Assembly: GCA_014859375.1 (NCBI GenBank)
Contig: JACUUH010000001.1
Span: 62,001 to 126,000, forward strand
Length of the DNA: 64,000 nt
Reading direction: 5' to 3'
Origin: Gammaproteobacteria bacterium
GTDB lineage: Bacteria > Pseudomonadota > Gammaproteobacteria > Nitrosococcales > Methylophagaceae
The first letter of the stretch is position 1, and every line of letters starts with the position of its first letter. The translations under genes were made by a program, and so were the position numbers. The notes beneath the pieces are model-generated. The model was not told the DNA's origin, did no database searches, and was given only the letters and a program-made list of their open reading frames with translations. This document shows positions 9,088 to 40,021 of the stretch, piece by piece.

Positions 9088-10374
9088 ATGGCACGTGCTT
9101 TATTAAAACAATATTTGGTAGCTTCATTAGAATCAGATGAACCGAATCCTGAAGAAGTAGAAGAAGTAGAAGAAGAATCTGGTGTTGAGTCTCTAGAATA
9201 CGCAACTCTTGAAGTTGAAGAAGCTGGTGAAGAAGTAGAAGAAGTTATGCAAGACATCGAAGATCTTGAAGAAGTAGAAGAAGGTTTGGAAGCTATTGTT
9301 GCTGACCTAGAAGCTTCACTTGAACAAGGTGGCCTTGATCCAGTTGCGGCAGTATTCGCCACACACGCTATCTCAGCATACACTGCTCGTTTAGGCGTAG
9401 AATCAGCCGACTTGATTCCTTCAGTTGAATCTTTCGGTGGTGACACTACCCGCACAGTTTCTACTGAATCTGCTATGGATAAGGTAAAAGATACCATCAA
9501 GAAAATTTGGGCTACCATTAAAGCAGCTATGGAAAAAGCGGCAAAAGCTATTGCAGATTTCTTTGCTAAGATTTTCGGTGGCGTTAAGAAATTGGAAGCT
9601 CGTTCTAAAGCTTTGAAAGCTAAGATTGCTGAAGTTAAGAAAGCTGGCGGTAAAGCTGGCGACATTAAAGTTCCTAATGCCGCTACACTAGCCGTTGGTG
9701 ACAAAGTAGACGTTAAGTCAATCACAGACGGTTTAACTGCACTTAATGATACAGTTAAAGCTGTGGCTGGTGGATATACTGACGAAGTAACTAAAGCTAC
9801 TGAAAGCATGCCTGGTCTAGTAGCTGCTTGGATGGGTGCATCTGAAGAAGAAGCTCCTGCTAAGAAAGAAGCTGTGGATAAAGCCTATGATAGTGCACTT
9901 GCTTCTTTAGAGAAAGTATCTGGTGAAGTTGTATCCGGTAATAAGACCATTGCTGTTAAAGAAGGTAAAGTTTCTTTAGAAGCTGCGGAAGGTAAAGGTT
10001 TCACTGGTGATGCTTCAATGACTGCATTGAGTACAGCTGAAATGGAATCAGTATTGAAAGCTGTTGACGAACTAGTTGATTACATGGGCAAGCGTAAAGC
10101 TGCTATTGATAAACTATCTAAAGCTCGTCAAGAAGTTATCAAGAAACTTGATGCTGAATTCAAGAAAGAACCTAAGCACCCAGGTAAAGATGTTAATGCT
10201 GTTATGAAAGGTGCTCAGAAAGAAGTGTCTGCCATTACTTCTTCTGTTGCCGGTCACGCTTTCTCTGTAGCTCGCTCTGCTTTGGCGTTGGTAGAAGTTT
10301 CTGCTAACTCTTACAAAGCTGAAGACGATAAGAAAGAAGGTGAAGAAAAGCCAGCTGAAGGCGATGACAAATAA
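9088..10374 (+). CDS. Inner-head-type protein paralog 1 with acidic propeptide
   Basis: 428 residues from ATG 9088, ten bases after AGGAG; the frame is open further upstream but lacks an RBS there. The N-terminus (ALLKQY) resembles the LLxKY segment of its paralogs. Residues ~18-80 are extremely acidic (long E/V/D runs), like a scaffold propeptide. S-V-E at ~112-114 and S-T-E at ~125-127 sit just before an amphipathic helix (~129-165) containing IKKIWATIK and FFAKIF. The C-terminal half is helical and lysine-rich. In phiKZ-type phages head proteins are cut after S-x-E, so residues 1-127 may be removed. Codon choice (GCT, GAA, AAA, GTT) is more uniform than in neighbours, suggesting high expression. 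Confidence 0.7.
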   Translation: MARALLKQYLVASLESDEPNPEEVEEVEEESGVESLEYATLEVEEAGEEVEEVMQDIEDLEEVEEGLEAIVADLEASLEQGGLDPVAAVFATHAISAYTARLGVESADLIPSVESFGGDTTRTVSTESAMDKVKDTIKKIWATIKAAMEKAAKAIADFFAKIFGGVKKLEARSKALKAKIAEVKKAGGKAGDIKVPNAATLAVGDKVDVKSITDGLTALNDTVKAVAGGYTDEVTKATESMPGLVAAWMGASEEEAPAKKEAVDKAYDSALASLEKVSGEVVSGNKTIAVKEGKVSLEAAEGKGFTGDASMTALSTAEMESVLKAVDELVDYMGKRKAAIDKLSKARQEVIKKLDAEFKKEPKHPGKDVNAVMKGAQKEVSAITSSVAGHAFSVARSALALVEVSANSYKAEDDKKEGEEKPAEGDDK

Positions 10375-10408
10375 TTAATTTTGTCTAACCTTAGTTTTCG
10401 ATGAAGTA

Positions 10409-10442
10409 GAAAGTAACGGGTTAATTCCCGTTACTTTCTTTC
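10409..10442 (+). terminator. Rho-independent terminator (TTAATT loop)
   Basis: 12-bp perfect stem GAAAGTAACGGG / CCCGTTACTTTC with loop TTAATT, followed by TT-rich sequence. It lies directly after inner-head paralog 1 and so separates it from the next three. Confidence 0.85.
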
Positions 10443-10540
10443 TATACCCGTTTTATTAAGAACCAACAACGGCTACCTTTAAAAGGCTTTTAAAGATTTC
10501 ACCCTTATACTGTGAACGATTAACCCAATAGGGCATAACT

Positions 10541-11773
10541 ATGTTAGGAAAATACAATGTAAACAAAGGTCTGACTTCGAAAGAATTCGATCTTTTAACC
10601 TTTAATTCAGAATTAAATTCTTCATTTAAAAAAGTACAGTCAAACGATGCAGTAGCGTTAAAGTTATCTCATTCTTTTGAAAATTTATCTGATGTAATAG
10701 AATCTTTAGATAGTTTGGCGACTGACTCTATCGCGCTATCAGACCAAGCCATGGCTTTTTTAAAGCATTCAGTGCAAGAGGACTTGAAGGGCACTGTTTC
10801 GGTGGAATCTATCTTACCCAAGGATATCAATAGTCTATTAACCTTAAATGTTTCTATTGAGAATCTAAAAGATGCTTTGCAGAAAATGTGGGTGGCTATT
10901 AGAGAAGCAGTAAAGAAAACCTTAGAATCTCTTTCTAACTTCTTTTCTAAGATATTCGATAATTTAGATTCCATTATTAAGAAATTAGAGAATATGAAAG
11001 AAACCTCTAAGAAGATTAAATCGGATAATTTAGAGATAAAGAATAGATCAGGCTTAGCGGTTAAATCTCCAGACTCAGTTAAGTTCTCTGGTAAGGTAAG
11101 TTATGACAGCATGTCTAAAGGTTTAAAGGCATTAAAGTTTATAGTCACTGAAACGTATGTTGATTATACTAAGGTTTTAGAATCCGATTTAAAAAATCAA
11201 ATAAACCTTATTAAAAAGATGGATAAAGTTTCTTCTGAAGAAGAATTTAAGCCAATATTGGAAACAATGGAATCTTCCTCTAGAGACGTACTGAGAGTTA
11301 TTAAGACTTCATTAGAGGGTAAGTTCATCATAGGTGACAAAGTCTTTAAGAATGACGTTAAACACTCCTCTAACCATATGTTTAACCTGATTTTAAGTGA
11401 TACAGGTAGCTCTAACGGTTTTAGAGGTGAAGTTGAAATAGACCCACTTACTCCAGACCAGATGTCAGTTCTATTATCTTTAGCTATAAGTTCCTTAGAA
11501 ACTATAAAAAATAATAGAAAAACTATAGACTCTATTAGAGCCTATATGAGCGAATCTATTAGATTAGGTGAACTTCTAGCTAAATCTTCCAGTGATGATA
11601 AAAGCATTGTTAGAAATAGAACTGTACTTAGAAAATTACAACAGGATAATCTAAGACCAGTTACTCAATTGACTACTCATTTTTTTAATACTATCAGATC
11701 TTTAGTAACGATAGTAGAGGAGTCAACAAGACTTTATATCCCAGAGGAGGGAACTAACTATGTCTATGTTTGA
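10541..11773 (+). CDS. Inner-head-type protein paralog 2
   Basis: 410 residues beginning MLGKYNVNKG. S-V-E at ~87-89 and S-I-E at ~105-107 precede the family's amphipathic helix (LQKMWVAIREAVKK ... FFSKIF, ~108-145). A K/E-rich region follows, and the C-terminus has a TPDQMSVLL...RLGELL pattern aligning with the other copies. It overlaps the next paralog by 14 bp. Likely packaged into the head and trimmed by a prohead protease; that role is inferred from layout. Confidence 0.65.
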   Translation: MLGKYNVNKGLTSKEFDLLTFNSELNSSFKKVQSNDAVALKLSHSFENLSDVIESLDSLATDSIALSDQAMAFLKHSVQEDLKGTVSVESILPKDINSLLTLNVSIENLKDALQKMWVAIREAVKKTLESLSNFFSKIFDNLDSIIKKLENMKETSKKIKSDNLEIKNRSGLAVKSPDSVKFSGKVSYDSMSKGLKALKFIVTETYVDYTKVLESDLKNQINLIKKMDKVSSEEEFKPILETMESSSRDVLRVIKTSLEGKFIIGDKVFKNDVKHSSNHMFNLILSDTGSSNGFRGEVEIDPLTPDQMSVLLSLAISSLETIKNNRKTIDSIRAYMSESIRLGELLAKSSSDDKSIVRNRTVLRKLQQDNLRPVTQLTTHFFNTIRSLVTIVEESTRLYIPEEGTNYVYV

Positions 11774-12986
11774 TAAGTATGCGCAAACGCCCTCAGTAGC
11801 TCCCACAGAGACGCTTGAACTCTTAAGTGATGAAGTCACCGGAGGTCTCACTAAGGATTACCTGGAGATTAATGCTATCTCCAAGGATTTAGATAAAATG
11901 TTAACGTCTTCTTACAACTTAGGTATGTTAGAAGACAAGTTTGATAGTATAGCTAACGAGTCTATGTTGTCTGACAGAACATTGTTTTATGCAACGCAGT
12001 CCGTTAACTGTGAATTAAAAAGTTTAGGTTTGGAAGCGATTCCTGGTGTGGACTCTATAGTAGGTGCTAAGAATAAAACTAAAGACATCCTGGCTTCTAT
12101 TTTTAAAGCTATTAAAGATGCTATCCTAAAGATACTTAACAGTATTAAAGAATTCTTCGGTAAACTTTTTGGTTTGTTAAGACCTTATAAAGAAAGAGTT
12201 GATAAATTACAGAAAGAAGTCCAAGAGAAGTCTAAAGGTAAATATAAGTTACAAAATGACTCACCTATCAAATTACCTTCTACTGTTATATCTAAAGATA
12301 CAAAGTCAATTTACGATATCAGTAGAGTAATGCAAGAGTTGGTGTCTTCAGGTCAGGGTATTAGAACTACCATGCTTTCTATCTCATCTAAGAGAATAAA
12401 GAACCTCACTTCTTTTTTAATAAATCTTAAACAGGATAAGTTAAAACCTAAGGACTTAATTGCTGGCTTTAAAACTACACTAGATTCCCAGTATAAGAAT
12501 TTAGAACCGTTGGTTAGTAAATACAAAGATAGTTTAGGGTATAAAACTTTTGTTGAGAATACATTCAAATATAAGTTAGGAGATGATCTTAACTATGAAG
12601 AAAAATGGATTTCTTTTGGTGAATCAGAGTCTAACCCTAAGAGCGACCATGATGTAGAGGTTGATCTAACAAGACTTAAACTTTCAGTTTTAACTGACAT
12701 GCTACAAAGTTCAAGTAAGATACTGGAAGGTTTTGAATCAAGTAAATCTTTAGTTGAGAAGTATTACTCGGATAGAGAGAAATCTATTAAAGATGCTGAG
12801 CGCGTTATTGTAGTTAACGATAACACTGTGGATACACAAAGAGTCAATACCTCCATTAGAGCTATCCTTAGGATACTCCAAAGAGAGTCCTTGAAGCCGG
12901 TGGTTGATTTTGATAAATACTCTTTAGACTATGTCAGATTCACTATATCTATGACTGAGAAAATATTAAAGAGGTATCAAGCGTGA
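11760..12986 (+). CDS. Inner-head-type protein paralog 3
   Basis: 408 residues beginning MSMFDKYAQT. The RBS GAGGAGGG lies inside the end of the upstream gene. A G-L-E site (~90-92) precedes the shared helix (ILASIFKAIKDAILKIL ... FFGKLF, ~107-140). The C-terminal segment with ILRILQRESLKPV aligns with LRKLQQDNLRPV of paralog 2, which is good evidence for common descent. It overlaps the next start by four bases. Confidence 0.65.
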   Translation: MSMFDKYAQTPSVAPTETLELLSDEVTGGLTKDYLEINAISKDLDKMLTSSYNLGMLEDKFDSIANESMLSDRTLFYATQSVNCELKSLGLEAIPGVDSIVGAKNKTKDILASIFKAIKDAILKILNSIKEFFGKLFGLLRPYKERVDKLQKEVQEKSKGKYKLQNDSPIKLPSTVISKDTKSIYDISRVMQELVSSGQGIRTTMLSISSKRIKNLTSFLINLKQDKLKPKDLIAGFKTTLDSQYKNLEPLVSKYKDSLGYKTFVENTFKYKLGDDLNYEEKWISFGESESNPKSDHDVEVDLTRLKLSVLTDMLQSSSKILEGFESSKSLVEKYYSDREKSIKDAERVIVVNDNTVDTQRVNTSIRAILRILQRESLKPVVDFDKYSLDYVRFTISMTEKILKRYQA

Positions 12987-14281
12987 GTACCAAGGACGTA
13001 TTAAGTAAATACAATGTTGAAGACTATTCTGACATTAGTAATGAAGGTTTGTTAGAATCGGCTTATGAAACATCAGAAGCTATTCATTCAATAAACTCCG
13101 CACTGAATGACATAGATGCAGCTATGGATCTTACTGATTCTGTGTTATCAATTGAGTCTATGTTAGCTATGCATGATTTATCTGACAGAGAAATTGAACT
13201 TGTTAACGGTAATTTAAAAACATTGCTATTGGCACACGCCGGTGAAATAGAAAACTTAGGTCTAGAGTCAGGTGGTGTGGCTGTTGCACAAAAAGTTATC
13301 TTAGCCGTTCTTAAAGGAACCTATGAATTAATAAAAGAAATGTTAGTTCAACTATTTCAAGCATTAAAGAAATTCATCCAGCGTATGAGATACAATCTCA
13401 AGGGCGTTAGAAAGTCTAATAATGATATGTTGGAGACGATGCGTGAAAATAGTAAAAAAGGTTTAAAGGTTACTAAAGTTGACATTGAGGGCACGGCGAA
13501 CTCTTTAAGCATTGATTATAAAACTCCACAAAACGGTGAAGAGATTTATAAGGGTTTACAGACACTCTCAAGATACGCCAATGCTTACTTTAAGTTATTT
13601 GATAAAGATGTAATATCTTCTTCATCTAAACTTATCTCTGCTGTTGAAAGGTTTGACATTGCCAATCCAGAACTGTCTCTAAAGGCCGTGCTGGACATTG
13701 CTGATACAATAAACCCTAATACAGCTGCTGATCTTGTTAAAAGTACAGTAGATAAAAATGTTAAAATGTTAGGTGGTGGGTTATATAAAAAATCTTTACC
13801 TTTAATGGGTAACAGATCTATAATGTATTTTGAACCTTACATTGAACCGTCTGAGGTAGATCTCATTGCGGTCTCTAGAATTAAGAGAACGAGATGGGCT
13901 AATCTTAAAGCTACTAGAGATAACCCTCCTAAGGGATCTAGTTCAACAGAGATAGATGTTATTACGGTATCGCAAGCTGCGGAGATTCACAGACTTGTAA
14001 GAGACCTTACTCACATGGTTGAAGACCATTTGGATAACCGAGATAAGATTTTAAAATTAGAAAGAAGCATTAACCGTGCCCTTGATAAAATGAAATCTAG
14101 ATCTGAATCTTCCTCGGATATATCAGAGAAAGGTAAGCGGCACTATCAAGAAGTTATGAGATATTCTCAACGTTACATTTTCTGGGCACAAAACCCACAG
14201 ATGGAACTTGTTAAACTCATACTCTCTTCTTGTAGATCAGCAATTGTTGCTTGCAATAAGTCAGCTGCAGTTTACGGTTAA
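12983..14281 (+). CDS. Inner-head-type protein paralog 4
   Basis: 432 residues with a GTG start overlapping the upstream TGA. The N-terminus MSTKDVLSKYNVEDY carries the shared LxKY segment. S-I-E at ~56-58 and G-L-E at ~93-95 are followed by a helical segment (ELIKEMLVQLFQALKKF, ~100-138). It is the most divergent of the four, but has the same propeptide-helix-lysine-rich-helical order. Last of the block before a strong terminator. Confidence 0.65.
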   Translation: MSTKDVLSKYNVEDYSDISNEGLLESAYETSEAIHSINSALNDIDAAMDLTDSVLSIESMLAMHDLSDREIELVNGNLKTLLLAHAGEIENLGLESGGVAVAQKVILAVLKGTYELIKEMLVQLFQALKKFIQRMRYNLKGVRKSNNDMLETMRENSKKGLKVTKVDIEGTANSLSIDYKTPQNGEEIYKGLQTLSRYANAYFKLFDKDVISSSSKLISAVERFDIANPELSLKAVLDIADTINPNTAADLVKSTVDKNVKMLGGGLYKKSLPLMGNRSIMYFEPYIEPSEVDLIAVSRIKRTRWANLKATRDNPPKGSSSTEIDVITVSQAAEIHRLVRDLTHMVEDHLDNRDKILKLERSINRALDKMKSRSESSSDISEKGKRHYQEVMRYSQRYIFWAQNPQMELVKLILSSCRSAIVACNKSAAVYG

Positions 14282-31328: not shown

Positions 31329-31450
31329 GCCCGAAATAAAATTCGGGCACCTTATTACACAATGAGTTTATAGCTTATTGTAAACCTAATCTGATGATGA
31401 GTGAGCGAAAGGTATTGCGGACGGCGGTTCGAGTCCGCCCTACTCCACCA
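31329..31450 (+). ncRNA. tmRNA acceptor piece (T arm, acceptor 3' strand, encoded CCA)
   Basis: T arm GGCGG-TTCGAGT-CCGCC at 31423-31439, preceded by GGAC as in E. coli tmRNA. Acceptor strand CTACTCC at 31440-31446, discriminator A 31447 and genomically encoded CCA 31448-31450. Two hairpins upstream, GCCCGAA/TTCGGGC (31329-31348) and ACAATGAG/CTTATTGT (31359-31381), probably belong to this piece. The exact 5' end is not determinable. Confidence 0.88.
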
Positions 31451-31622
31451 AATAGTAACTGCAACAATTAATAGATGGTTTATCTCCTATTCATTAAGAA
31501 AGTTGACTTGATGAAAGTCGTGTTGATAAACTGAAGTCGTCATTAACTTGGCGGTTGAACTTATTTATTGTGTTGTAGCGGAAAACGTCTCCGCGCATAT
31601 ACAACTGCAGTTACTATCTGAT
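31451..31622 (+). ncRNA. tmRNA intervening transcribed segment (removed on maturation)
   Basis: 172 nt. Its ends are a perfect 12-nt inverted repeat, ATAGTAACTGCA at 31452-31463 and TGCAGTTACTAT at 31606-31617, which would extend the acceptor stem and hold the two pieces together for processing. Inside, GTTGTA-GCGGA / TCCGC-...-TACAAC forms a further hairpin (about 31572-31604). Confidence 0.8.
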
Positions 31623-31900
31623 GGGGTAGCATTGGTTTCGACGTGGTGCTAATTACCTCATTCTAGGATCGTGCTTGATTACTGGCACGTAAAAGAAGGT
31701 GTCAGGTTCCCCTAAAAAGAATTCTGAACGCTGGAAAACAGATTATCTGTTTATTAGTAATTTTAAAGTAACTGCAAACGATAATAATTTTGCACAAGCT
31801 AAGATCGCAGCCTAAGAAACTGTGATCGCTGGGGCTCATCGTCGGGATATGCCTTGCAACAGAACCCACCGCACCTCGATAGGGGTGCGTCACTAATTCC
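31623..31900 (+). ncRNA. tmRNA coding piece with tag ORF
   Basis: Begins GGGGTAG, then TTGGTTTCGACG (D-loop signature). PK1: CGTGC 31670-31674 with GCACG 31685-31689, and loop TTGAT 31675-31679 with GTCAG 31701-31705; a GTAAAAG linker follows as in E. coli. Tag ORF 31774-31815, preceded by AGTAACT. H5: GATCGCAG 31803-31810 with CTGTGATC 31820-31827. A further 8-bp hairpin lies at 31870-31889. The 3' end is approximate. Confidence 0.88.
31774..31815 (+). other. tmRNA proteolysis-tag reading frame (ANDNNFAQAKIAA)
   Basis: Resume codon GCA at 31774-31776, then 12 more sense codons and TAA 31813-31815. The tag begins AND like the E. coli tag and ends in a small hydrophobic Ala-Ala, the feature recognised by ClpXP-type proteases. 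The stop lies in the loop of H5. Confidence 0.88.
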
Positions 31901-34288: not shown

Positions 34289-36670
34289 ATGTATAACTTC
34301 GTAAGAACCCTCGTAGGGAATGTTTTCGTAGAAGAAACTAAAGGGTTAATTCACATTAAAGGTGTTAAAGCCTTATTGCTTTTAAGGGATATAAAGTCCA
34401 TTTGGAAGACTTCCACTATAGGGAATAATATATTTGTTAAGTCTACCGGTAACACTTTAACTTTCCATTCTTTTTTTGCTTTAGAAATTAGATATATCCT
34501 CGAGCAGATGCTTGAAAATCCAAAAGCATTTAGATTAAGTCCAAGGGTAATAAATAAAGTTTTAAAAGAATTAATGAAAAGTACCTGGTTAAAAAAGACC
34601 ACGGAGTTAGATCAAGTATTACCTTTAAATTACAAGAAATTAAGAGACTTTAATTTAAAACCCTTAGAGCATCAAAAAGAGTTCTTAGAAGTATTTAATA
34701 GAAGAACTCAACTTTATAATCTAAATGGTTTTATGCTAGCTGCAGCAGCTGGGTCTGGTAAAACGTTTACTAACATGGCTCTTTCTAGAGTTAATGATTC
34801 AGAGATCACCATAGTTGTATGCCCCAAGAACGCAGTTTATAAAGTATGGGAAAAATCATTAAAAGATGATTTTAAAAAGACTCCTAAATATTGGATAGCG
34901 GCGGATGGGAAAGATTTAGACTATAAATCGGAATATTATATTTTCCATTATGAGACTTTAGATAAGGCGCTGGAATTAGGTAAGAGAATAGGGGATAAAA
35001 ATAAGACCACTATAATTTTAGACGAGTCTCACAACTTCAATGAAATTAAGTCTATGAGAACTCAAAAGTTTATTGACCTTTGTAAAGTTACAGGCAGTAA
35101 GAATATCGTTTGGGCTTCAGGCACACCTTTGAAAGCCATGGGTGGTGAGATGATAGGTTTTTTAAAATCCATCGACCCATTATTCAATGATGATGTTGAA
35201 AAAGCTTTTAAAAGTATCTTTGGTACCAGTGTGCAAAGGGCTAATGATATCTTAGCGCATAGACTAGGCTATATTTCTTTTAAAGTTAAAAAGAACGAAT
35301 ATCGTACTGCAGAACCAACAGAGAACACTGTTAAAGTTGAAGTACCTAATGGTGATAAATACACTTTAGAAAGTGTAAGAGACCAAATGGCTAAATTCAT
35401 AGAAGAAAGAGTAGTCTACTATAAAGAGAGAGAAGATGAATATAAACAAAAGTTTTATTCGGCTTTAGAGTGGTATGAATTAAATATAGTTAAAGGTTCT
35501 TCAGATGTAAGTAATTTTAAAGAGTATATGTCTAAGTTAAAAATTGTTATTAAAAGTAATGACTTAAGACAAGTATCTGAAGAAATAGTTTTTTGCAATA
35601 ACTACGAGAAACAAAAAATTATACCATCGCTTATATCTGATCACAAAGCTAATTTCCTAGAATCTAAATCGGTGGTTAAATATCTTAGTCTGAAGATACA
35701 AGGCGAGGCTTTAGGTAGAGTACTAGGTAGAGCCAGAGTAGAGTGTTTTAAAGACATGGCAAAACATTCTAACTTAGTAGATCTAATAGAAGCTGCAGAG
35801 AAAAAGACTGTGATTTTCACTAGTTACGTTGAAGTGGTTGATGAACTAGAGGAGAGATTAAAGAATCTAGAGTATCTACCCGTTGTGGTGCATAGTAAAA
35901 CCAAAGAAAGTTTAACATCTGCTGTAACTAGGTTTGAGAAGAATGAAAACTTAAATCCCTTGTTAGCTACGTTTAAATCTTTATCCACTGCAGTGCCTCT
36001 AATAGTTGCCAATAAGGTAATCATGATTAATGCGCCTTATAGAGACTACGAGTACGAGCAGGCTATATCTAGAGTGGATAGATTAGGTCAAGATACACCA
36101 GTAGTTATAGAGAACCTCTACTTAGACACTGGTACAAAACCTAATATATCAACAAGGTCTAAAGACATTATGCAATGGTCTAAAGAACAAGTTAAAGAAT
36201 TGCTAGGGTTCGATTATGATGACAGTTTAGATATATCAGTTGAATCTTTAATGGAGGATGAACCTTCAATGGAAGCAGTCAGCTCATTTAAACCTAAGGA
36301 AGACTCTTCCAATCCTGGTTTTTACTTTATCCCAGGTTATAAGGGATACAGAGCTAGTGAAGATGGTAAAATACTAACTATCAAAACAGGTAACTCTACT
36401 TACGGTGGGATGGCAGGTGATTATCTAAAAGTGAAAGTTTATCCTGACAATGTTAAAGGTCCTATTATGCAGTATGCGCACATTTTAGTATGTACAGCAT
36501 TCTACGGTAAACCTAAGAAGGGTCAGGTGGTTCTTCATAAAGACAACGATAGAACTAATAACAATAAAGGTAATCTTAAGTGGGATACTCAGTCTGAAAA
36601 CATACAGCAGGTATGGGACGACGGATTGAGAGAGTCTAAAGAGAGTTATCCTGTAAGTATGAGGTGGTAA
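34289..36670 (+). CDS. SNF2/DEAD-type helicase fused to a C-terminal NUMOD4-HNH domain
   Basis: 793 residues. Helicase core: Walker A AAAGSGKTF (152-160), DESH box (245-248), SGTP motif III (~277-280) and QAISRVDRLGQ motif VI (591-601), an SF2 helicase of SNF2 style. Residues ~678-793 look like NUMOD4 (FYFIPGYKGYRASEDGKI) plus HNH (H731, H750 with KDNDRTNNNKGNLKW), as in phage HNH homing nucleases. The linker has S-V-E (650-652) and S-M-E (660-662), matching the head-protease-type site used by neighbours, so it may be packaged and cleaved. ATP-driven DNA translocation is expected; the nuclease may be active or vestigial. Confidence 0.85.
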   Translation: MYNFVRTLVGNVFVEETKGLIHIKGVKALLLLRDIKSIWKTSTIGNNIFVKSTGNTLTFHSFFALEIRYILEQMLENPKAFRLSPRVINKVLKELMKSTWLKKTTELDQVLPLNYKKLRDFNLKPLEHQKEFLEVFNRRTQLYNLNGFMLAAAAGSGKTFTNMALSRVNDSEITIVVCPKNAVYKVWEKSLKDDFKKTPKYWIAADGKDLDYKSEYYIFHYETLDKALELGKRIGDKNKTTIILDESHNFNEIKSMRTQKFIDLCKVTGSKNIVWASGTPLKAMGGEMIGFLKSIDPLFNDDVEKAFKSIFGTSVQRANDILAHRLGYISFKVKKNEYRTAEPTENTVKVEVPNGDKYTLESVRDQMAKFIEERVVYYKEREDEYKQKFYSALEWYELNIVKGSSDVSNFKEYMSKLKIVIKSNDLRQVSEEIVFCNNYEKQKIIPSLISDHKANFLESKSVVKYLSLKIQGEALGRVLGRARVECFKDMAKHSNLVDLIEAAEKKTVIFTSYVEVVDELEERLKNLEYLPVVVHSKTKESLTSAVTRFEKNENLNPLLATFKSLSTAVPLIVANKVIMINAPYRDYEYEQAISRVDRLGQDTPVVIENLYLDTGTKPNISTRSKDIMQWSKEQVKELLGFDYDDSLDISVESLMEDEPSMEAVSSFKPKEDSSNPGFYFIPGYKGYRASEDGKILTIKTGNSTYGGMAGDYLKVKVYPDNVKGPIMQYAHILVCTAFYGKPKKGQVVLHKDNDRTNNNKGNLKWDTQSENIQQVWDDGLRESKESYPVSMRW

Positions 36671-37269: not shown

Positions 37270-38400
37270 GTGAGTAACCAAAATTTATTGGCTAAATATA
37301 GCAACGGTGGTTTTAACAAAGAGACCGACGGCCGTAAAAGGCGAATGGTTTTAAGAGCTTCGCAGGAAGGGTTTATTGATAATCTATTTAAGATGTTTAG
37401 AAGAAATAAAGAAATAGATTTTGAAAAGTTTGATACTGATGAGTTAATTACTTTCCTTAGAGAAAACCCTGATTACATTGAAGGTATTACATTAGATAAA
37501 TTGTTTTCTAAACAGGATTCGATCTTACAGGATGTTTTAGCGAATTCAAATATTTTTAAAGTTAACGAAGTATCTGATATTTTAGCTACTTACGATAAAC
37601 AACTTAAACTTAACAACAGATACATTAAAGAAAACATTAGGTTGATGAATCCTAACGACTTTATATCCACAGGTAAATTACCTTCTTTAGGCCACTCTCT
37701 GAATAAAAAATTAGATGTGTTAAACGGCCAAAGTCTTAAAGATGCGTTTTCAAAATCTATAAACGTCCACTCTGCTAAAGATAAAAACTCTGAGTTTGAA
37801 GTCGTGGAGTATACTGGAATGTTAATCTCCTTAACAGGTATGTTACTGATAAGAACTTGTAAATTCAGAGATATATTCTTTAGATTTTATACGACTATAG
37901 AAAGAGATAATTTCGATTCTTTGAAAAGTAAGATAACGTATCAAAAAGATCAGCTAACTGTAGACGATGTGATCAAGTTAATAAATCACAAATATGATTC
38001 ATCTGACTGGGCTGAGTGGGGCGTTAGTAATATTGAAGAAGGTGTGGAAATTGATGACATAGCTAAATTCTACAAATCTGTTGAAGACAATTTGAAAAAA
38101 GCTAAAGCTGAAGACGTTACCCAATTAAACCACATATTAGATTCTATTTATGCAGATGTATCAATGAGCGGTGGGATAGATTACATGGTTGATTGGTTCG
38201 ACATATATGTTGAAGAAGAGGGTGAGTCGGTAGAAGGTAAGAAGTTAAGTAATAGAGGTATTTGTAATTTCCTTATTAATATATTAATAGACGACTACTA
38301 TTATAACTTTGAACAATTTTTCTTCGGATATTTTGGTGAAATAGAACAAATTCAATACAATGTCGTAGAGTCTATTGTTAAAGCTTTAATGAAAAAATAA
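37270..38400 (+). CDS. Inner-head-type protein with LLxKY N-terminus
   Basis: 376 residues, GTG start after AAGAAGGAACGG. MSNQNLLAKYSNGGF shares the N-terminal segment of the 10.5-14.3 kb proteins. S-Q-E at 31-33 is followed by GFIDNLFKMFRRNKE, again a site just before an amphipathic/basic helix. A central hydrophobic segment (TGMLISLTGMLLI) is present. Probably packaged; function unknown. Confidence 0.6.
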   Translation: MSNQNLLAKYSNGGFNKETDGRKRRMVLRASQEGFIDNLFKMFRRNKEIDFEKFDTDELITFLRENPDYIEGITLDKLFSKQDSILQDVLANSNIFKVNEVSDILATYDKQLKLNNRYIKENIRLMNPNDFISTGKLPSLGHSLNKKLDVLNGQSLKDAFSKSINVHSAKDKNSEFEVVEYTGMLISLTGMLLIRTCKFRDIFFRFYTTIERDNFDSLKSKITYQKDQLTVDDVIKLINHKYDSSDWAEWGVSNIEEGVEIDDIAKFYKSVEDNLKKAKAEDVTQLNHILDSIYADVSMSGGIDYMVDWFDIYVEEEGESVEGKKLSNRGICNFLINILIDDYYYNFEQFFFGYFGEIEQIQYNVVESIVKALMKK

Positions 38401-38412
38401 AAGGGATTATTT

Positions 38413-39129
38413 ATGAACTTACTCGACAAATATAAACCTAACTTGGAAGCAACTGAATGTTTTGGGATAGAGTCATTCACTACTTCATCAGAAGATTGGA
38501 ATCCTTTTAGTAAAATAATGGATAAGCTTCGCAAGAGAAAAGAAGAAAAGAATGCTAAGAAAAAGGCTGAATTGGAATATAAGAAAAAAGTTTATGATGT
38601 CAAAACCGCCTTTGCCAACATTTTAGATGAAGTTATAGATAAGAAAAATTTGTGGGTGCATAACGATGACTATGATAGCTTTTTACATATAACTGGCAAG
38701 GGTAAATATAGCGGTTTTTCTTTCGAATTATACCCCACTAAACTAATTAAATATAAAGTTAATAAAGATAGACTTTTGTTGGAAACTATTCACGCTTCTT
38801 CTGATAGCGTAGACGGCTGGAATGGTTCTTTAGATCAAATGTTAAAAGTCTTAAATGACGAAAATGCAAGTTATGAGGACGAGCAGGAGTTTTATAACCA
38901 CGGTATTAAAATAACCAACGATATTAAAGATTCCGATTTCTTCTTAGTATTTATTTATGAAGCAGATAATGATGTTATAAAAAGACAAGATAAAGGTTAT
39001 GGTTCGGCATTTTGTTTAGGCGTAAATACTATAGAAGTAAAGCAAATAACTAAAGCAGTAGATGATATTGTATCTGAATCCAAAAAGGAATTTGATTCTA
39101 TGAAATATAAAAGTATTATCAGTGCTTAG
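38413..39129 (+). CDS. Inner-head-type protein with LLDKY N-terminus
   Basis: 238 residues beginning MNLLDKYKPNLEA. G-I-E (18-20) and S-S-E (25-27) precede DWNPFSKIMDKLRKRKEEK. The remainder is a mixed alpha/beta domain with no recognised family. It lies directly upstream of the ClpP-like protease that has the same N-terminal signature. Confidence 0.6.
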   Translation: MNLLDKYKPNLEATECFGIESFTTSSEDWNPFSKIMDKLRKRKEEKNAKKKAELEYKKKVYDVKTAFANILDEVIDKKNLWVHNDDYDSFLHITGKGKYSGFSFELYPTKLIKYKVNKDRLLLETIHASSDSVDGWNGSLDQMLKVLNDENASYEDEQEFYNHGIKITNDIKDSDFFLVFIYEADNDVIKRQDKGYGSAFCLGVNTIEVKQITKAVDDIVSESKKEFDSMKYKSIISA

Positions 39130-39153
39130 TTAAAAAATAAAAGGAATAAATTA

Positions 39154-39987
39154 ATGTCTATTTTAGATAAGTATAATAGAGCCGAGCCTTTGGCTCAACA
39201 ATCCCAAGAATTCCCAGAGATGAGAATATCAATGGAAGGTTATGAGCTTTTAGCGGTAGTTGGTGATGTAGCTTCAATGGAAGGTGTAGACCTTACACCT
39301 AAGGATAAAAGAGTAGGTAATGAAAACCATACTCTATTTGTTAAGAAGATGGAAAATGAAGATGGTAAAGAATATTACCATTACAGACTTTTCTTAGGTC
39401 CCATTCTTGAATGGGGCCCTTCCTTTAACGATTTAATTAATCCTCTTTATGAGATGAGTGAAGAGGATCGGTTAGAAATTAGAATCATGGCTTCACCAGG
39501 CGGTGCTATTGATTATGGAATGGCTTTGATTAATGTCTTGAATAACCAACTTATCGGTAGATCCACAGGTATATTGGATAGCACGGCGGCTTCTATGGCT
39601 TCTTCAGTGTATGTAAATTGCCATAAGAGAATTTGTCATCCACATTCTACCATTATGTTCCATTATTATTGGGGAGGTGCTTTTGGTAAAGGTCAGGAAC
39701 TTATGGCTCAAGCTGACCACCACCATGGTAAGTTCACGTCTATCATTAGAGAACATACTGTAGGTAAAGGATTCTTAACCGAAGAAGAGTTTAATAGACT
39801 AACAGATGGTAAAGACTATTGGTTTGATGCTAAAGAAATGTTAACCCGTGGTATTGCAACGCACATCATGTTCAAAGGTCATGACATTGAAGCCTCTGAG
39901 TTCCTAGATTATTTAAGTCAAAACTTAAGTGACGAAGAAATTCTTAGATTACACATTGAAAAAGATCATCCAGAGTTAATGGAATAA
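39154..39987 (+). CDS. ClpP-like (S14) protease with head-targeting-type N-terminus
   Basis: 277 residues. Core: MASPGGAIDYGMAL (ClpP-type oxyanion turn), TAASMAS with nucleophile Ser147, FHYYWGG with His170, and DYWFDAKEMLTRGIATHI with the probable acidic residue near 221. The N-terminus MSILDKYNRAEP matches the LLDKY segment of the head proteins. S-Q-E (17-19) and two S-M-E (26-28, 41-43) suggest autoprocessing. ClpP-fold enzymes serve as prohead proteases in several tailed phages. The best model is a head-maturation protease; host-type ClpP activity is the alternative. Confidence 0.8.
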   Translation: MSILDKYNRAEPLAQQSQEFPEMRISMEGYELLAVVGDVASMEGVDLTPKDKRVGNENHTLFVKKMENEDGKEYYHYRLFLGPILEWGPSFNDLINPLYEMSEEDRLEIRIMASPGGAIDYGMALINVLNNQLIGRSTGILDSTAASMASSVYVNCHKRICHPHSTIMFHYYWGGAFGKGQELMAQADHHHGKFTSIIREHTVGKGFLTEEEFNRLTDGKDYWFDAKEMLTRGIATHIMFKGHDIEASEFLDYLSQNLSDEEILRLHIEKDHPELME

Positions 39988-39993
39988 AGAATT

Positions 39994-40021
39994 GTAGGGT
40001 AGTCCTTCTGGACTACCCTAC
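39994..40021 (+). terminator. Hairpin terminator after ClpP-like gene
   Basis: 12-bp perfect stem GTAGGGTAGTCC / GGACTACCCTAC, loop TTCT, with only a weak T-rich tail. Confidence 0.7.

Follow-up and report, generated by a model that had tools for sequence, protein, structure and literature searches.

We discovered that the internal head proteins of a phiKZ-like phage share a short N-terminal leader with several proteins of unrelated core, among them a ClpP-like serine peptidase. Computation reveals an enrichment of this leader, its coupling to S-x-E motifs, the presence of a canonical S80 prohead protease and, in the ClpP-like protein, intact catalytic residues as well as an extra N-terminus. 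We consider it probable that the leader is a cleavable head-targeting signal which is trimmed by the S80 protease and which loads the ClpP-like protein as a passenger into the head, most likely for injection; packaging, a location in the virion, cleavage, injection and an action on the host are what we infer from these observations. Judged by its sequence, the ClpP-like protein looks like cargo and substrate and not like a maturase.

The window, i.e. the whole stretch of 64,000 nt that was analysed, corresponds to C4:62001-126000, where C4 marks coordinates on its entire host contig (209,130 bp, binned with a bacterial assembly); plain coordinates are positions within the window. By its gene content the contig is a phiKZ-like phage of near 209 kb, as a phiKZ-type MCP, vRNAP subunits, an S80 protease and phiKZ_IP proteins are all present. 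The MCP matches the phiKZ-type head protein family (PHROG, 4.8e-193) and shares 30-44% identity with the MCPs of relatives, and a vRNAP homologue is found with 1.5e-100. Both contig ends carry a near-identical repeat (C4:1-200 and C4:208971-209130), each copy with a different tRNA-like gene, and therefore the contig is probably near complete; the repeat probably halted the assembly of a circular or permuted genome. Given these ends and the presence of the S80 gene, we rejected the idea that an incomplete contig hides the answer. The window further encodes a 793-aa protein (34289-36670, + strand) in which a DNA helicase (PHROG 62) is joined to a C-terminal HNH endonuclease-like domain.

The N-terminal leader and its carriers

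The sequence-only reading of this DNA had noted that MSNQNLLAKY, MNLLDKY and MSILDKY open three consecutive + strand genes, which is indeed the case (Table 1); the genes of this trio are separated by only 12 and 24 nt, and a hairpin directly past them possibly marks the end of an operon. It had also proposed to look for the LLDKY-type segment in other proteins, and this segment turned out to be far more frequent than expected. We scanned the 232 predicted genes of the contig for [LIVMF][LIVMF]xKY ending by residue 11, a motif that was refined after a first look at the data, and found it in 10 genes, compared to 0.51 expected from its internal frequency. Two kinds of shuffles that keep the N-terminal composition give 0.63 or 0.89 expected genes, and none of 2,000 shuffles reaches 10. 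When the trio is left out, seven genes with the leader remain (0.82 expected; 0 of 5,000 shuffles reach 7). An eleventh carrier, C4:71088 (window position 9088), has the variant ALLKQY. In an unsupervised pairwise comparison of N-termini mostly the same genes rank highest in this phage, and no such cluster is found by this ranking in LucasX, phiKZ or SPN3US. In a plain dipeptide scan KY ranks only third (13 vs 4.0 expected, P 2.5e-4), and thus the signal is the longer motif.

Table 1. Position and description of the trio genes, their sub-features and further leader carriers (window coordinates, or contig coordinates where prefixed by C4)
Feature	Coordinates	Strand	Description
Trio gene 1	37270..38400	+	376 aa; leader MSNQNLLAKY; S-x-E site SQE-33; core without family match
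Trio gene 2	38413..39129	+	238 aa; leader MNLLDKY; sites ATE-15 and SSE-27; core without family match
Trio gene 3	39154..39987	+	277 aa; S14/ClpP-fold serine peptidase; leader MSILDKY and predicted catalytic core
Disordered N-terminal extension of the ClpP-like protein	39154..39282	+	leader MSILDKY at 39154-39174
Candidate cleavage sites of the ClpP-like protein	ends at 39210, 39237, 39282	+	SQE-19, SME-28 and SME-43, respectively; S-x-E motif
12-pair hairpin directly past the trio	39994..40021		terminator-like on the - strand; consensus match only
Internal head protein (phiKZ_IP family)	9088..10374	+	leader variant MARALLKQYLVASLE; 3 S-x-E in residues 1-45; PHROG internal head protein 1.9e-26
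Internal head protein	10541..11773	+	leader MLGKYNV; SKE-15; PF12699 4.2e-20
Internal head protein	11760..12986	+	leader MSMFDKY; SDE-25; PHROG internal head protein 2e-4; family HMM match (protein in HMM seed)
Internal head protein	12983..14281	+	leader MSTKDVLSKY; SNE-21; PF12699 4.6e-19; PHROG 3.3e-14
CYTH-looking protein	C4:135445-136041		leader MNLLKKY; SNE

The leader is enriched on internal head proteins: it is present on all four certain phiKZ_IP proteins, compared to 7 of the 228 other genes (Fisher 2.8e-6), and C4:51999 is likely a fifth IP-like carrier as judged from its sequence. Three carriers have unrelated cores, namely the ClpP-like protein, a Phage_gp49_66 protein (C4:51679) and the CYTH-looking protein, whose name we presume from a reading by eye that had no database match. 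For C4:50290, as for trio genes 1 and 2, no family match was obtained. The claim that head proteins bear the signal therefore applies to the genes at 9088-14281 of the window but not to trio genes 1 and 2, neither of whose cores matches any family, head-protein families included. Weak Pfam matches of trio gene 1 (e.g. to a toxin domain with E=0.014, far below its cut-off) were taken as chance, and a search for phage matches of trio genes 1 and 2 and of C4:51999 gave nothing useful. Homologues of the CYTH-looking protein are found in LucasX, DT01, FLC6/8/9 and Goslar, where the core is conserved and the N-termini vary, several of them with S-x-E. A short leader followed by S-x-E is kept in DT01, in which the protein starts MNKAMMKQYLGVVEMTTSLE and has MMKQY, and in LucasX.

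Carriers of the leader are also distinguished by what follows it. An S-x-E with its Glu at residues 12-36 is found in 10 of the 11 carriers vs 24 of 192 other genes (12.5%; Fisher 4.9e-8), S-x-E itself being a short and common motif; the one exception, C4:51999, has TVE at the same place. At least three S-x-E within the first 45 residues occur on the contig only in C4:71088 and in the ClpP-like protein. The comparison with the T4 capsid targeting sequence (CTS) made by the sequence-only reading is thereby supported in its logic, i.e. an N-terminal leader followed by S-x-E processing sites. As in T4, the same short segment is found on several unrelated proteins, 'internal' by homology for four of them only, and a prohead-protease motif stands soon behind it, from which cleavage is predicted. 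The common leader thus appears to target proteins to the head, as had been proposed, but the ClpP-like protein does not appear to be the head protease that acts on its carriers. The MCP gene (C4:126540) starts MSLLKINGKK, which is near the MSLLKKY of carriers but lacks KY; the S-x-E sites of the MCP, SLE-46 and SME-145, are similar to those of the ClpP-like protein.

Leaders of a related kind occur in other phages. In phiKZ, gp97 starts MMVNIHKYVASLE (leader NIHKYVASLE) and gp153 starts MFNIHKYAKSISLE (leader NIHKYAKSISLE); both have an HKY leader and are annotated as structural head proteins. The homologue gp238 of 201phi2-1, a virion protein identified by MS, starts MKYGSLSKYMAEVGVEPSQE (SLSKY...PSQE). 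By itself, KY occurs in 5 phiKZ genes where 2.5 are expected, which does not amount to an enrichment. The pattern [YFWL]x(1-3)SLE by residue 18, which was chosen post hoc, is present in six phiKZ genes (NC_004629) vs 0.5 expected; by coordinates these are gp93, gp94, gp95, gp97 and gp184, together with a gene at 165066 that we take to be gp162. Apart from this one pattern, a generic rule of an aromatic residue before S-x-E does not rise above background. The N-termini of gp93, gp94, gp95, gp97, gp153, gp184 and the assigned gp162 share a short SLE-ending pattern (e.g. LLDSLE, EYLDSLE, KYVASLE, FFASLE and WLASLE), which is possibly an unrecognised targeting leader. Injection has been shown for both gp97 and gp153, and gp93, gp94, gp95 and gp184 are reported as injected like gp97 (PMC10449902). 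Cleavage of gp153 takes place at SQE-52 (PMC5694885), its earlier SLE being a candidate site only. Internal head proteins of closer relatives have other short leaders that end in SLE or SME. Related leaders are thus present in phiKZ, DT01 and closer relatives, and we therefore regard the general design as common to these phages. Among the phages examined, only this one has the LLxKY form spread over unrelated proteins. We rejected a universal KY leader, as no comparable KY cluster is found in SPN3US, LucasX, SNUABM_54 and Goslar.

The ClpP-like protein and the S80 prohead protease

The third gene of the trio encodes an S14 peptidase with a predicted intact catalytic core. It matches the Pfam family CLP_protease (PF00574, 7e-12) and, by sequence, solved ClpP chains (8e-10), and a Foldseek search of the PDB with its model returned only ClpP as top matches (E about 1e-10). 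The alignment-based monomer model, which was used instead of a single-sequence model of pLDDT 42, has a mean pLDDT of 77.5 with a well predicted core, and its residues 1-26 and 35-56 fall below 50. Ser147 (in TAASMAS) and His170 (in IMFHYY), both named by the sequence-only reading, were confirmed and are invariant across 12 sequences; Asp221 aligns with the catalytic Asp of ClpP, is Asp or Glu in most homologues and is the probable third catalytic residue. The three S-x-E upstream of the core were likewise found, ending at E19, E28 and E43, with the core beginning at about residue 57 in the model.

The best family of the protein is PHROG 1827, the accessory phage 'ATP-dependent protease', and PHROG head-maturation families are secondary matches. 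Its N-terminal ~43 residues have no counterpart in its homologues, and the leader was found in 0 of the 22 viral relatives whose N-terminus was read. Where the protein has relatives in T5-like phages or Campylobacter phage CP220, these adjoin lysis or DNA genes (e.g. holin/endolysin, topoisomerase). Among 12 reference and 8 IMG/VR phiKZ-like records we detected no ClpP-like gene, and hence none conserved with the head genes of these relatives, in a search that had no positive control and in which some IMG/VR records may be fragments. A search of host relatives gave weak partial matches only, and a scan of viral contigs with the ClpP-like protein alone gave nothing useful. A published survey describes the distribution of ClpP in jumbo phages as patchy, which is what one would expect if such proteins are directed against the host (PMC7824862). 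In two IMG/VR contigs, L178 and L183, ClpP-like genes adjoin genes that look GroEL-like and GroES-like by sequence, hinting at a phage protein quality-control cassette. In the present window a permuted (two-piece type) tmRNA gene is found at 31393-31815 on the + strand (Rfam RF04321, 83.4 bits, cut-off 47), and its tag by ARAGORN is ANDNNFAQAKIAA. tmRNA tags normally feed ClpXP, so that the co-occurrence of a tmRNA with a ClpP-like gene in this phage genome may have a meaning.

The contig encodes a canonical S80 prohead protease of the phiKZ gp175/SPN3US gp245 type at C4:207235-208014 (PF20034, 5e-76; PHROG head maturation protease, 3e-78), which is 36% identical to SPN3US gp245 and whose gene lies near vRNAP genes in an arrangement as in SPN3US. 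It retains His80, Ser156 and C-terminal S-x-E sites at 201, 220, 229 and 236 (SLE-201 to SLE-236). These sites agree with the C-terminal autoprocessing of gp175 and gp245 (PMC5694885, PMC7411985). The N-terminus of the S80 protease has no LLxKY leader, and SPN3US gp245 is thought to be targeted via its C-terminal propeptide (PMC7411985). Cleavage after S/A-x-E has been shown elsewhere for the family of this protease; in phiKZ-type heads the motif reads S/A-x-E for phiKZ and A-x-E for SPN3US (PMC9026906, PMC10052503). As this canonical enzyme is present on the same contig, head maturation can be explained without the ClpP-like protein.

Proposed route of the peptidase and its alternatives

We propose that MxxLLxKY would act as a phage-specific cleavable leader that fronts the internal head proteins and several unrelated passengers. 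By binding the forming prohead core it would recruit its carriers, and the S80 (gp175-type) protease would trim it after S-x-E sites. The ClpP-like passenger would be an accessory S14 peptidase that gained the leader and is packaged as a precursor, from which up to ~43 residues would be lost at SQE-19, SME-28 or SME-43; if the last site is used, the mature peptidase would start near residue 44. It would stay in the head and most likely be injected with the DNA, ready-made, into the next host. ClpP normally forms large rings, and the passage of such a complex, or of its subunits, through a tail is conjectural, which weakens this explanation. It is also weakened by three carriers, C4:50290 and trio genes 1 and 2, for which a relationship to head proteins is not clear, and by the missing KY cluster in SPN3US, LucasX, SNUABM_54 and Goslar.

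The strongest rival places the work of the peptidase inside the prohead, where the leader-targeted protein, without an unfoldase, would clear the leader and propeptide fragments released by the S80 protease, so that injection would be unneeded. The same leader data speak for such a role, and ClpP without its ATPase digests short peptides. Clearance of propeptide fragments is moreover a recognised issue in giant-phage maturation (PMC10052503, PMC5694885). However, relatives mature their heads with no ClpP-like gene detected, and we regard fragment clearance as unlikely. We give less credence still to a leader that serves another purpose, be it to recruit a chaperone, to bring proteins into the phage nucleus or to associate them with the early-infection vesicle. 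phiKZ-like phages do sort proteins between compartments, and the GroEL-like and GroES-like neighbours of the ClpP relatives on L178 and L183 would fit a link to chaperones, as would the N-terminus of the T4 head protein, which recruits a chaperonin (cited in PMC10052503). Yet internal head proteins and S-x-E sites are over-represented among the carriers, and the related phiKZ leaders mark injected inner-body proteins.

The sequence-only reading had cast the ClpP-like protein as the prohead maturation protease, which enters together with its substrates, cuts after S-x-E and frees itself by self-cleavage. It does bear the same leader as well as three S-x-E sites, other phages do have head maturation proteases of the S14 type, and head-maturation families of PHROG are among its secondary matches. 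Against this role stand the canonical S80 protease in its conserved neighbourhood, the S-x-E sites which relatives without a detected ClpP-like gene keep in their MCP and inner-head proteins, the accessory class of its best family, and the position of homologues away from head genes. We find this claim, self-removal included, unsupported and very improbable, and rejected the ClpP-like protein as sole maturase, as the S80 enzyme is encoded. Already disfavoured, and the least probable of these readings, is that the N-terminal likeness reflects coincidence or the shared ancestry of neighbouring genes and no common signal. K and hydrophobic residues are indeed abundant at the N-termini of this phage, and four of the carriers are paralogues. 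But the shuffles give 0.6-0.9 carriers where 10 are seen, the ClpP-like, CYTH-like and gp49_66 carriers have unrelated cores, and the S-x-E coupling is separate from the KY count.

Beyond the loading of the ClpP-like protein as a cleavable passenger, one modular leader might bring further enzymes besides the ClpP peptidase into the next host, reveal the injected proteome from sequence and allow ClpP to alter host proteolysis before phage expression; we put this forward tentatively and regard it as rather doubtful. On how giant nucleus-forming phages choose the proteins that are loaded into the head, and hence reach the next host, published work describes propeptides that are long, varied and have no common consensus. 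If our proposal is true, the leader would be a tag for cargo loading, and its occurrence on non-homologous proteins together with S-x-E would constitute a code readable from sequence which predicts injected proteins from genomes. Among injected enzymes, the ClpP peptidase that we predict as cargo would be of an unusual kind.

Comparison with known systems

In T4 the CTS is a short N-terminal segment on several internal proteins (IPI-III, Alt), is removed by the Glu-P1 prohead protease gp21 and supports the packaging and delivery of cargo (PMC9026906). Both systems place a short N-terminal segment on several proteins ahead of a Glu-P1 protease motif; here, however, the leader is LLxKY and stands a few to ~25 residues before S-x-E, and the likeness that we propose concerns the logic of the two systems. 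With the inner-body proteins of phiKZ and SPN3US our phage shares the PF12699 family, the PF20034 protease family and the S/A-x-E logic, whereas the published propeptides are long and diverse, with identical N-termini only in the paralogues gp53/gp54 (PMC5694885). In the published work on phiKZ and SPN3US we found no description of a leader common to non-homologous proteins, including a ClpP. The N-terminal signal of P1 DarB suffices to load a reporter into the head, and DarB is believed to be injected (PMC9024508). DarB thus also has an N-terminal capsid targeting signal, but the Dar proteins have no common consensus and lie outside any S80 system. The accessory phage ClpP proteins (PHROG 1827 of T5-like phages; Campylobacter CP220) are the closest sequence relatives of the ClpP-like protein, with the same S14 core and conserved Ser/His, yet they do not have the N-terminal leader and its S-x-E sites. 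Taken together, the logic is that already known from the T4 CTS and from the propeptides of giant phages; new is the predicted consensus leader that non-homologous proteins of a single phiKZ-like phage have in common, a ClpP peptidase included.
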